From positions 1-6,511 of the forward strand of contig JACPQZ010000060.1 in the NCBI GenBank assembly GCA_016190205.1: DNA of 6,511 nucleotides, in the 5' to 3' direction. Position numbers and translations under genes: made by a program. Every line of letters starts with the position of its first letter. Positions within the stretch are counted from its first letter, which is position 1. This document shows, one piece after another, positions 745-5,384 of the stretch. Under the pieces are notes generated by a model, which made no database searches, was not told the DNA's origin, and saw nothing but the letters and a program-made list of their open reading frames with translations. Source of the DNA: Candidatus Omnitrophota bacterium (GTDB lineage Bacteria > Omnitrophota > JACPQZ01).

Positions 745-2145
<1,401 letters not shown>

Positions 2146-2157
<12 letters not shown>

Positions 2158-2175
2158 AGCGTGAAGCGTGAAGCG
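2146..2175 (+). repeat. Tandem heptamer array, unit GTGAAGC (rotation AAGCGTG), 4.3 copies
   Basis: The sequence is exactly periodic at 7 bases from 2146 to 2175. Full GTGAAGC copies start at 2147, 2154, 2161 and 2168. The array covers the last three sense codons and TGA stop of cysS, the 10-nt gap, and the GTG start of tmk. Because 7 is not a multiple of 3, three copies read through every codon phase, and the unit yields TGA. Any + strand frame entering the array therefore terminates within 21 nt. The complementary strand (unit GCTTCAC) has no stop in any phase. No Shine-Dalgarno is visible in the array. Confidence 0.95.
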
Positions 2176-2800
2176 CAAAGGTAAATTCATCACTTTCGAG
2201 GGGCCGGAAGGGAGCGGGAAGAGCACCCAAATCCGCGCGCTCTCCCGGTTTCTAAAGGAGCAGGGCATCCGCTGTGTTGTGACGCGGGAGCCCGGCGGGA
2301 CGGAGATAGGCGAGGCCGTTCGCAGCGTTCTTCTCAAGGAGCGGCGCGCTCGCGTTCATCCCCATACAGAACTTTTCCTATATATGGCGGCCAGGGCGCA
2401 GCTCGTGCGGGAAGTTATTAGGCCGGAGCTTCTAAAGGGCCGATGGGTGCTATCGGACCGTTTTCTGGACGCATCGATTGCATACCAGGGTTACGGTCAT
2501 GGCCTCGCAGCGGGCTGGATTCGCAGCCTCGGCCGCGCGGCGACGGGCGGGTTGGTACCTGATATCACCTTTCTCTTGGATGTCGAAGCCGGCAGGGGGC
2601 TCAAGAGGGCGCGCCGCCTCAAGGGCCGCACGGACCGTATTGAGGCCAAACCCCTGGCCTTTCATAGGCGTGTACGGCGCGGATATCTTTCGCTGGCACG
2701 CCGGGAGCCCCGGCGCATCCGGGTGATACCGGCCGGTGATTCCAAAGCGCACGTTCAGAAAAGAATTCGCGACGAACTCCGCAGGTGGATGAGATGCTAG
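2168..2800 (+). CDS. tmk: Thymidylate kinase (dTMP kinase)
   Basis: Phosphorylates dTMP to dTDP with ATP in the cytoplasm, an essential step towards dTTP. The 210-residue length is standard. The P-loop GPEGSGKST is at 12-20, the substrate-binding TREPGGT at 39-45, and the DRF/SxAYQG block at 97-108. PDITFLLDV (131-139) is the usual core strand. The LID/base region contains GRTDRIE (153-159) followed by FHRRVRRGYL. The usual YQGxGRG reads YQGYGHG, with His111 in place of the common Arg. This is the only departure noted, and its effect is unknown. The start is GTG at 2168 in the last full heptamer of the array. An in-frame TGA at 2162-2164 excludes earlier starts, and KGKFITFEG is the usual family N-terminus. 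With no Shine-Dalgarno and a 10-nt gap from the cysS stop, coupled translation is likely. The stop TAG (2798-2800) touches the second heptamer array. Confidence 0.97.
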   Translation: MKRKGKFITFEGPEGSGKSTQIRALSRFLKEQGIRCVVTREPGGTEIGEAVRSVLLKERRARVHPHTELFLYMAARAQLVREVIRPELLKGRWVLSDRFLDASIAYQGYGHGLAAGWIRSLGRAATGGLVPDITFLLDVEAGRGLKRARRLKGRTDRIEAKPLAFHRRVRRGYLSLARREPRRIRVIPAGDSKAHVQKRIRDELRRWMRC

Positions 2801-2823
2801 CGACAAGCGACAAGCGACAAGCG
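2799..2823 (+). repeat. Tandem heptamer array, unit GCGACAA (rotation AAGCGAC), 3.6 copies
   Basis: Exact 7-base periodicity runs from 2799 to 2823, with full GCGACAA copies at 2800, 2807 and 2814. The first two bases of the array are the last two of the tmk TAG stop. The array fills most of the 32 nt between tmk and the likely holB start at 2833. Neither strand has a stop in any phase. If holB starts upstream (GTG 2785 or ATG 2794), the array is translated as ATSDKRQ. In the AAGCGNN rotation the unit shares five bases with the array at 2146-2175. Confidence 0.95.
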
Positions 2824-2832
2824 GCTGACGAA

Positions 2833-3849
2833 ATGGCTATCTCACTCAAGGATATTTACGGTCAATCAGAGATAATTGCGCAGTTGGAATCCGCCAGCCG
2901 GGCGGGGAGGCTCGCCCATGCCTATCTTTTTTGGGGCCCGGAGGGAGTGGGCAAGAGTACCCTGGCGCGGGCCGTCATCAAGGGGCTATTGTGCGATGAG
3001 GCAGGCGGGCTCGCGTCCTGCGGCTGTTGCCCATCCTGCCGCCAAGCTGAAGCAGGCTCCCATCCGGACGTCATGATTATAGAGCCGGAGAGCCCGGCAG
3101 GAGCGATCGGCATCGAGGCAGTCCGCGCTGTCCAGGCGCGCGCGTCGCTCAAGCCTTTCAGAGGAACCAAAAAGGTCGTCTTGGTGCGACGGGCGGATCT
3201 CATGACTCCAGAGGCGTCTCACGCGTTGCTCAAGTCTCTCGAGGAGCCGGACCCTGGCATGTACTGGATCCTCACGGCACGGCATCTTAGAGCGCTCCCG
3301 GCCACAGTCAGGAGCCGCACCCAACCCATAAGTGTGAGACCTCTTCCGGAGGAAGAGCTCGCGGCCATCCTGGGAGGGCGGGGCATGGGGGCCGGCGAGG
3401 CCCAGACATGTGCGCGGCTTGCGGAGGGCAGCGTGGGAAAGGCCCTGCGTCTGTGTGAAGCAGGCGAGGTCAAGTGGAAAAACCGCTGGATCGATTCGTT
3501 CCTCGTGGATAGGGAGCTTTTGGCCGGATCCTCCCGCCGGGCGCCGTGGCGAGAGCTCGAGAAGCTCGAGCGCGCGGAACTAGAGAAGTTTCTCGATCTT
3601 TTTGCGCAGTGGTTCCGGGACCTGTTGGTGTGTTCAGAGTCTGTAAAGGGGGTCTTTCCCCTCAACGGCGATCGTGAAGACGCGCTTCGATCTGAAAAGG
3701 CCCGGTACACGCACGAGGAGCTTATTCAGCTCATAGAGGTGGTGGCCGAAGGCAGAAATCTTCTGGATCGAAACGTAAATACGAAAGTCCTCATCGGGTG
3801 GCTCGAGCAGACGATTTCGGAGATCCTGTGCCCAAAAAGTTCTACCTAA
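2833..3849 (+). CDS. holB: DNA polymerase III delta prime subunit (clamp loader)
   Basis: AAA+ clamp-loader subunit that helps load the sliding clamp on primed DNA at the fork. Numbered from ATG 2833 it has 338 residues. The start MAISLKDIYGQ is a typical family start, followed by the HAYLFWGPEG block. Walker A GPEGVGKST (35-43) is intact, unlike the altered P-loop of E. coli delta prime. A four-Cys zinc site (C54, C63, C66, C69) has the C-x8-C-x2-C-x2-C spacing of E. coli HolB. ALLKSLEEP (131-139) is a hallmark, with His130 where Asn is usual. The SRC motif reads SRT (161-163), keeping the arginine finger but losing the Cys. The start is uncertain. In-frame GTG 2785 and ATG 2794 also exist, the latter preceded by AGGTGG (2783-2788), whereas 2833 lacks a Shine-Dalgarno. 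I prefer 2833 for homology and because upstream starts would translate the repeat array. A gamma/tau (DnaX) identity is less likely: those proteins are usually longer and have no such context with tmk. Confidence 0.93.
   Translation: MAISLKDIYGQSEIIAQLESASRAGRLAHAYLFWGPEGVGKSTLARAVIKGLLCDEAGGLASCGCCPSCRQAEAGSHPDVMIIEPESPAGAIGIEAVRAVQARASLKPFRGTKKVVLVRRADLMTPEASHALLKSLEEPDPGMYWILTARHLRALPATVRSRTQPISVRPLPEEELAAILGGRGMGAGEAQTCARLAEGSVGKALRLCEAGEVKWKNRWIDSFLVDRELLAGSSRRAPWRELEKLERAELEKFLDLFAQWFRDLLVCSESVKGVFPLNGDREDALRSEKARYTHEELIQLIEVVAEGRNLLDRNVNTKVLIGWLEQTISEILCPKSST
3819..3822 (+). promoter_or_regulatory. Shine-Dalgarno deciding the metG start
   Basis: GGAG at 3819-3822, inside the end of holB, lies 5 nt before GTG 3828. 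It favours this start over the in-frame GTG at 3798, which would add ten residues (ARADDFGDPV-like) not found at MetRS N-termini. Confidence 0.6.
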
Positions 3850-5384
3850 CTACGCCGCTTTATTACGTCAACGATGTCCCCCACATCGGCCACAGCTATA
3901 CGAATATCCTGGCTGACTGCGTGGCGCGTTTCAAGCGCCTGGAGGGCCGCGACGTTTTCTTTCTGACGGGGACGGATGAGCACGGGGAAAAGATAGCCCG
4001 GGCGGCGGAGGCGGCCGGCGAGACCCCCCAGGCCTTCGTGGACCGCATCTCTCCCCGGTTTCGGGAGCTCTGGGCCGCCTTGGGGGTGAGCCACGACGAT
4101 TTTATCCGCACGACTGAAGACCGGCATGTCCGTACCGTGGCGTGGGTGCTGGGGCGGCTTAAAGAGAGTGGAGACATCTATGCCGGCGAGTACGGGGGGT
4201 TTTACTGCACGCCGTGCGAGACCTTTTGGACCGAGGCGGAGCTTAAGGCCCAGCCGGGCGCCGGCTCCCGGCTTCTTTGTCCCTCTTGCGCGAGGCCCGT
4301 CGAACCCTTACGCGAAAAAAATTATTTCTTCCGCATGTCCAGATACCAGGCCGAGCTCGTGCGGCATATCGAGATGAATCCCGGATTCATCCGGCCCGAG
4401 GCGAGGCGGAACGAAATATTAAGTTTCCTGAAAGGGCCCCTGAATGACCTCTGCGTCGCGCGTCCCAAGAGCCGCTTGTCGTGGGGAATTCCCATTCCCT
4501 TTGATCCGTCCTATGTGACGTACGTGTGGGTGGATGCCCTCATTAATTACGTGAGCGCCTGCGGCCTTGGGTTGGACGAGGGGCGTTTTGGCAAGTGGTG
4601 GCCGGCCGATGTGCACCTGATCGGCAAGGATATCCTTCGGCATCATACCGTCATCTGGATTTCTCTCTTGATGGCGCTTAAGCTCCCGCTTCCTGCCACC
4701 GTCTTGGCCCATGGCTGGTGGACGGTGCGCGGTGAAAAGATGAGCAAGTCGAAAGGGAATGTCGTGGATCCGCATCGGGCAATAGAGGCGTGGGGCCGGG
4801 ATGCTTACCGCTATTTTCTCTTGCGCGAGGTCCCCCTCGGCCAGGACGGGGACTATTCGGAGACCGCCCTTTCGCAACGCTACCGGAATGACCTGGCGAA
4901 TGACTTCGGCAATCTCGTCAACCGGACGCTCTCCATGGTCCATCGCTATTTTGGGGGGCACATCCCGGACCCCAATCGAGCGGGGGGAGAAAGCCCGCTT
5001 AAAGGGCAGGCCCTTGAGCTGGGTCCCAGGGTCAGGGAGTGCATGGATCAATATCTGTTTAAAGAATCCCTCGAAGAGATCTGGAAGGTCGTGGAACGGG
5101 CCAACCGTTATGTGGAGGAAACCCGGCCCTGGGACCTGGCCAGGGAAAAACGCGAGGCGGAGCTGGGCCTTGTGCTTTACGGTTTGTGTGAGGTCGTGCG
5201 CATCTTGGGGGTTTTGACGGAACCCTTTCTCCCTGACACTGCGCGGGCTATCGACGTGATGCTGGGGGCTGACCTTAAAGTAGGGGGACGATGGGAGTCG
5301 GCGTGCCGGTGGGGAAGTGGCCGCCCAGGGCAGCGGCTTGGATCGCTTGCGATCCTGTTTCCACGTCGGGAAACGGACGGTTGA
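3828..5384 (+). CDS. metG: Methionyl-tRNA synthetase (MetRS), form without C-terminal tRNA-binding domain
   Basis: Cytoplasmic class I enzyme that charges initiator and elongator tRNA-Met. From GTG 3828 it has 518 residues, and PKKFYLTTPLYYVND is the expected start. HIGH (19-22) is intact, followed by LTGTDEHGEKI. The connective-peptide zinc knuckle has four cysteines in one knuckle (C127-x2-C130 and C151-x2-C154). WGIPIP (219-224) and YVWVDAL (232-238) line the active site, and KMSKS is at 304-308. The anticodon-binding helices carry N426 and the ETRPW block ending at W435. The protein stops soon after LFPRRE, the normal end of the short form, so the C-terminal dimerisation/tRNA-binding domain of E. 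coli MetRS is absent. The start overlaps holB by 22 nt, which suggests translational coupling. The last 110 nt overlap the convergent HD-GYP gene. A start at GTG 3798 is possible but less likely. Confidence 0.97.
   Translation: MPKKFYLTTPLYYVNDVPHIGHSYTNILADCVARFKRLEGRDVFFLTGTDEHGEKIARAAEAAGETPQAFVDRISPRFRELWAALGVSHDDFIRTTEDRHVRTVAWVLGRLKESGDIYAGEYGGFYCTPCETFWTEAELKAQPGAGSRLLCPSCARPVEPLREKNYFFRMSRYQAELVRHIEMNPGFIRPEARRNEILSFLKGPLNDLCVARPKSRLSWGIPIPFDPSYVTYVWVDALINYVSACGLGLDEGRFGKWWPADVHLIGKDILRHHTVIWISLLMALKLPLPATVLAHGWWTVRGEKMSKSKGNVVDPHRAIEAWGRDAYRYFLLREVPLGQDGDYSETALSQRYRNDLANDFGNLVNRTLSMVHRYFGGHIPDPNRAGGESPLKGQALELGPRVRECMDQYLFKESLEEIWKVVERANRYVEETRPWDLAREKREAELGLVLYGLCEVVRILGVLTEPFLPDTARAIDVMLGADLKVGGRWESACRWGSGRPGQRLGSLAILFPRRETDG

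Follow-up and report, generated by a model that had tools for sequence, protein, structure and literature searches.

The stretch of DNA analysed here, which we will call the window, is the whole of contig C50 (6511 bp) in the genome of a small, deep-branching Candidatus Omnitrophota bacterium (1.65 Mb in 76 contigs). According to Pfam, it carries the operon cysS-tmk-holB-metG, and two short heptamer arrays sit at gene boundaries of this operon. The features concerned are the following:

745..2157, + strand: cysS, cysteinyl-tRNA synthetase, the upstream gene (Pfam PF01406, 9.2e-108)
2146..2175, + strand: five-CG heptamer module 1, CG-TGAAG-CG-TGAAG-CG-TGAAG-CG-TGAAG-CG (Tandem Repeats Finder; 30-nt five-CG frame)
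2155..2157, + strand: cysS stop codon TGA, within module 1 (from the sequence)
2168..2170, + strand: tmk start codon GTG, in the final repeat of module 1 (from the sequence)
2168..2800, + strand: tmk, thymidylate kinase, between both modules (Pfam PF02223, 1.1e-48)
2801..2830, - strand: five-CG heptamer module 2, CG-ACAAG-CG-ACAAG-CG-ACAAG-CG-GCTGA-CG (five-CG module listing)
2833..3849, + strand: holB-like gene, DNA polymerase III delta' subunit, the downstream gene, with a probable start at ATG 2833 (Pfam PF13177, 1.9e-44)

Tandem Repeats Finder places the first array at 2146-2175 (period 7, 4.3 copies, 100% match) and the second at 2799-2823 (period 7, 3.6 copies, 100% match); in a common rotation, their units read AAGCGTG and AAGCGAC, respectively. 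An earlier note on this DNA had described both arrays as beginning at the stop codon of the upstream gene, and this is indeed the case: the first one starts 9 nt 5' of the cysS stop TGA, and the second one inside the tmk stop TAG (2798-2800). Together with one further in-phase CG, the second array makes up exactly 30 bp (2801-2830) in the same five-CG frame as the first. Module 1 includes the codons at which cysS stops and tmk starts; downstream of the last in-frame stop and ahead of the conserved N-terminus of tmk, the GTG at 2168 is the sole in-frame start. The flanks of module 1 (TT on the left, CAA on the right) agree with the genome-wide consensus, in which GTT precedes the module and YAA follows it. 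Module 2, of which the array is the perfect part, takes up the gap between tmk and holB, reaching from the stop TAG up to 2 nt short of the ATG at 2833, and its minus strand is an orientation given by the family consensus. Both are single arms with no inverted partner within their own gap, so the hairpin role that we assign to them below is inferred from their family.

A search of the window and of a 20-kb contig piece bearing a 190-nt hairpin against Rfam 15 gave nothing above the gathering threshold. Two other features of the window can be mentioned. Positions 47-727 hold an ORF encoding 226 aa, hydrophobic at its N-terminus and unmatched in Pfam; it lies in a region of 42% GC, against 57-63% in the remaining window, and was possibly acquired. 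At 5275-5384, the convergent genes metG (+) and a GAF-HD-GYP gene (-) have 110 nt in common.

The genome sample used for the counts comprises 1.645 Mb rebuilt from separate stretches, with gene calls from a simple ORF caller, whose stops are reliable and whose starts are approximate. The collection of period-7 tracts of at least 3 copies, which had been put forward as a check on the family, gave 105 perfect tracts, against 0 in three third-order Markov genomes, whereas the other periods from 4 to 15 gave 0-32 each, at or near their small expectation. The window arrays are therefore not a product of chance. If mismatches are allowed, the number rises to 463 period-7 arrays, against 0-28 at other periods (the double period 14 aside), and these degenerate arrays have a modal length of 31 nt and a second mode at 55 nt. 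In intergenic DNA, the only peaks of base identity are those at lags 7, 14, 21 and 28 (0.32, 0.30, 0.29 and 0.27, against about 0.255), and the signal is gone by about 35, which again points to an array length of about 30 bp. Arrays make up 17.6 of the 137.9 kb of intergenic DNA; 317 of 481 are wholly intergenic, and 72 straddle gene ends. Assembly collapse was considered and rejected, since arrays with different words cannot be collapsed repeats, yet they share the 31-nt mode, as do arrays of another genome. The ends of contigs C1, C11, C12 and C54 of G000 fall in or next to heptamer arrays; these are thus probable break points of the assembly, and the true load is probably higher.

The units themselves are diverse. 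The earlier note had taken AAGCG as the core of one family, but the perfect tracts fall into 34 unit classes, most of them without AAGCG; AAGCGGG is merely the commonest (16), followed by ACGCAGT, ACCAGCG, ACAGCGT and others. The most widespread constant is instead the period of 7 with a CG every 7 nt. Exactly five in-phase CGs are found in 97 of the 152 CG-type arrays of the 27-36 nt size class, with the first and the last CG mostly forming the array ends, and five-CG chains occur genome-wide 184 times at period 7 against 3-14 times at other periods. About 44 arrays of the same size class have no CG column, and the non-CG families ACCAGNN/CTGGTNN follow the period and the pairing described below yet break the CG rule, so that CG, though the main anchor, is not the sole one. 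Around the 30 bp spanned by the five CGs, the flanks are conserved, with GTT before and YAA after. The modules had first been oriented by 15-nt flanks, which possibly carry stop or ribosome-binding signals; when the strand was set from the internal words only, the outcome was the same and the GTT and YAA flanks reappeared, so this consensus is not circular.

This grammar bears directly on two possible explanations. G-quadruplex modules, as proposed for GGGAATC repeats, could account for the GGG tracts of AAGCGGG and for a preference for four units that is also found in Xanthomonas, but four GGG tracts are not what these arrays offer, since most units, including both window units, have no GGG at all. 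The length of 30-31 nt is equally found in units with no G tract, such as ACGCAGT, AAGCACG and the two window units, and for the many units of this kind the quadruplex explanation fails; we consider it extremely improbable. The arrays could also be a binding platform, contacted every 7 nt at five points, on DNA or RNA, by a protein or a small RNA, with their placement serving regulation. The conservation of anchor spacing and number while the words vary would fit such a platform, as would the positions at gene boundaries on defined strands, and regulation has been suggested for the TAACTGA repeats of Beggiatoaceae (PMC4679880). A single specificity is however hard to reconcile with dozens of unrelated cores in one genome, the binder is a putative one, and the arrays adjoin ordinary housekeeping genes, the window being an example, so that this explanation seems to us quite unlikely.

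The placement of arrays follows the gene ends. Of 301 array starts, 100 lie between -10 and +15 nt from the upstream stop, where 38 are expected and the maximum in 1000 placements is 57, which bears out the idea of a heptamer family at gene 3' ends. The strand matters as well. Within 20 nt of the upstream stop are found 38 of 66 same-strand modules and only 8 of 76 opposite-strand ones (p=2.5e-9); just before the next start, the opposite holds (33/76 opposite-strand against 10/66 same-strand modules, p=2.5e-4). The coding orientation proposed for all copies is thus correct for those that follow stop codons, but the complemented copies before start codons, as well as the inverted pairs that the two kinds form, contradict a uniform orientation. 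It follows from this strand-position rule that intergenic regions are bounded by inverted arms. Indeed, among the 107 regions with arrays at both ends, 62 carry them as inverted repeats, against 12.4 with shuffled partners, and only 3 as direct repeats. The two arms of a pair match each other better than family controls do (19.4 against 17.1 of 24), a moderate advantage, and many arrays have no inverted partner in their own gap.

The RNA of two-array regions is predicted to fold far better than dinucleotide shuffles; the median z is -4.5 there and -0.3 in array-free regions. The strongest whole intergenic region, of several hundred nt with nested arms, reaches a predicted -171 kcal/mol. Mismatches in these stems are mostly between identical bases (A-A, T-T, G-G) and most often 7 nt apart, which is the pattern expected of a periodic stem whose positions are conserved by class (weak or strong) and is compatible with inversion by hairpin template switching. 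Nested quasi-palindromes of several hundred nt, in which one palindrome family lies within the loop of another, can be seen in G000 at C54:9023-9430, C34:27721-28060 and C70:103657-103930 (predicted at -140 to -171 kcal/mol).

Strong predicted stems after stop codons are what transcription terminators or attenuators would look like, and arrays are also scarcer between divergent genes (6/48 against 178/502, p=0.001). A T-tract follows the distal arm in 5 of 59 paired regions, however, against 41 of 712 random positions, and the arrays lie inside operons, even overlapping a start codon in the window; such a function is hardly to be expected.

How the arrays arose can be approached through the similarity between their units. 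The earlier note had favoured the copying of one local unit over the spread of a fixed sequence. Neutral slippage would be such a process: the polymerase slips, preferentially by 7 nt, locally in non-coding DNA, the loops escape mismatch repair, and the units converge. There is some ground for this, since 105 perfect arrays do exist, heptamers are given as the most abundant tandem period of prokaryotic intergenic regions in a passage of the SPADE survey (PMC6344855), and a polymerase-footprint idea was proposed earlier, as a passage of PMC4692102 recounts. The units of our arrays, though, do not resemble their neighbours more than distant ones: identity is flat with distance (0.83, 0.80, 0.83 and 0.80 at lags 7-28), the pair of words that coincides most frequently is the outer one (1 and 4) and the pair that does so least is the adjacent inner one (2 and 3), and the commonest pattern with a repeated word is A-A-B-A or its reverse. 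Nor would slippage set a length of five anchors, conserve flanks or produce inverted pairs.

Moreover, identical mosaic modules are found at unrelated loci. The module AGATA-CTTCA-AGATA-AGATA was seen at nine analysed loci, and a direct search for its 30-mer found ten places in the window's genome, one identical copy in G264, which belongs to another family, and, in G035, two copies of a variant with one base changed. G035 (GC 39%, against 57% in the window's genome) was sampled over 252 kb, and 22 of the 33 arrays there share a 14-mer with arrays of the window's genome, whereas the control, random windows at loci from other relatives, gave 62 of 5000. From this mosaic recurrence, the word pattern, the flat identity and the 14-mers shared across genomes, whole modules appear to have been copied, and their insertion is suggested by the recurrence. 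Slippage may add and remove units as well, but dispersed copies of hairpin elements fit these sequence data better than local slippage, which we regard as unlikely on its own. The array found inside the cysS gene of locus L171 was tried as an empty/filled comparison and set aside, as the protein alignment shows no extra length.

The enzymes that could copy such modules were looked for in the genomes of the phylum. An ACG-heptamer pattern is positive in 112 of 285 of them, very unevenly, and the window's genome ranks highest in this survey with 196 matches. A reverse transcriptase or telomerase-like enzyme adding repeats from a template, which had been the first idea, would suit arrays that are perfect and uniform. 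No RVT_1 match, nor any candidate at first look, was found in the window's genome (92.8% complete), the most array-rich of the phylum survey, and this speaks against the co-occurrence of a reverse transcriptase with the arrays; among the 62 of 285 genomes that have RVT_1, it is only slightly commoner with arrays (31/112 array-positive against 31/173 array-negative genomes). Templated addition is thus highly improbable in our judgement.

REP/BIME and MITE-type repeats are dispersed, intergenic and palindromic, and they lie near gene 3' ends inside operons; RAYT genes are normally flanked by their own REPs. The arrays could then be REP-like elements mobilised by resident RAYT (Y1) transposases. 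The window's genome does contain four Y1_Tnp genes, and across the 285 genomes Y1_Tnp copy number correlates weakly with array count (rho 0.28, uncorrected for kinship). Only one of the four is flanked by arrays, though; two have none within 2.5 kb and one has an array about 1.2 kb off, and in the array-rich G046 no Y1_Tnp was found. We hold mobilisation by these transposases to be very unlikely, and their small number and lack of systematic flanking also count against them as the mobiliser in the explanation that we prefer below.

A different kind of host factor is the hairpin nuclease SbcCD. Two of the phylum's 285 genomes have an SbcD score above the cut-off, with 13 of 14 control genomes responding, and SbcD gave no match in the window's genome. 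The same two genomes, G259 and G073, have a long, full-length SbcC match, while the others mostly show short SMC-like matches. A recognisable SbcCD is kept only at G259:C23 and G073:C2 of the 285 genomes, and the remainder of the phylum seems, from its sequences, to have lost it. A perfect palindrome of 460 bp kills Escherichia coli cells that have SbcCD, whereas cells lacking the nuclease tolerate it (PMC4245961), which makes the loss plausible as a permissive factor for long palindromes. It would be at most permissive: arrays are scarce or lacking in many relatives that have no SbcCD, whose loss is therefore not sufficient.

The explanation that we prefer, and to which we give, as a whole, slightly better than an even chance, is that the arrays are arms of a large dispersed family of intergenic hairpins that is copied as DNA. 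Each arm is a module of about 30 bp, built of five anchors, mostly CG, at a spacing of 7 nt, which enclose four 5-nt words, with GTT and YAA as flanks. Arms lie just past the upstream stop, and complemented arms shortly ahead of the following start; a region between genes that has both is a quasi-palindrome able to fold into a long stem, as the sequence and the folding computation show. Whole modules would be copied from place to place as DNA, in the manner of REP/MITE-type palindromic repeats, after which 7-bp slippage and hairpin template switching would have altered words and copy number. The gene ends of operons would tolerate the stem in the mRNA, or be served by it if it affects expression, and the loss of SbcCD would let long palindromes persist.

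Seven-base intergenic repeats are already known in bacteria, and what is new here is a richer variant with a defined frame and strict rules. A literature search by repeat sequence gave nothing relevant. Among the closest known repeats are the GGGAATC and GGGGA(C/T)T heptamers of Xanthomonas and Nostoc (Rehm et al. 2015, PMC4692102). They share with ours the period of 7, the preference for four units, the partly variable unit positions and the location, mostly between aligned genes, near the upstream gene end and rarely between divergent genes; Xanthomonas genomes even contain some 70 convergent inverted pairs each. The differences are that one small genome here has dozens of units, most of them without G tracts, in place of one dominant heptamer, as well as a five-CG frame, GTT/YAA flanks, a strict strand-position rule, nested palindromes of more than 100 nt, and whole modules shared across families of one phylum.

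The TAACTGA direct repeats of Beggiatoaceae, Cyanobacteria and Bacteroidetes (MacGregor 2015, PMC4679880) are likewise short runs of a heptamer at the borders of genes; their distribution over phyla is patchy, some genomes combine them with other heptamers, and horizontal spread is suspected. They consist, however, of one fixed heptamer, mostly right before start codons and in a single orientation, whereas many heptamers, inverted pairs and hairpins are found here. The SPADE survey (PMC6344855) reports an excess of tandem heptamers in prokaryotic intergenic DNA, with period and location as here; its heptamer passages state no clue to function and describe no module frame, flanks or inverted pairing, all of which are present here. 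The REP/BIME and MITE-type repeats are similar in being dispersed, palindromic and close to gene 3' ends, and the 62 inverted regions correspond to the terminal inverted repeats of MITEs, but our stems are on a 7-nt grid and no RAYT-flanking arrangement was found.

A bolder reading can be offered tentatively, as a possibility that we would not bet on: the arrays would represent a distinct class of self-spreading hairpins with a heptad grammar, copied by an enzyme across loci and distant lineages and allowed to grow by the loss of SbcCD, and the heptamer excess of bacterial intergenic DNA would be their trace. If true, such a class would account for this widespread excess. The fixed anchor number, the flanks, the strand placement, the inverted pairing and the sharing of modules are rules that simple slippage does not predict, and with them a vague heptamer excess becomes a defined element, open to searches, deletion and assays. 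The near-complete loss of SbcCD in the phylum would similarly be a testable reason for the survival of long palindromes.

The phenomenon extends further. Of 149 genomes in the phylum to which a Planctomycetota locus belongs, 41 are positive, some of them strongly; with uneven positives in two phyla, heptamer arrays are patchy over bacteria and not private to one lineage. Very high heptamer counts, up to 259 matches, are found in G429, G434, G401 and G300, which are in another phylum, that of G040, and some members of that phylum have arrays much longer than 30 bp. A perfect AGGGACA array lies inside the cysS coding sequence of G024, in a variable linker (L171:1178-1210), and the cysS-tmk gap of the same locus carries a perfect inverted repeat whose arms are each about 36 bp long. 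Three contigs of the viral collection IMG/VR (L236-L238) contain ACGCTTC arrays, some of them mixed with other heptamers.
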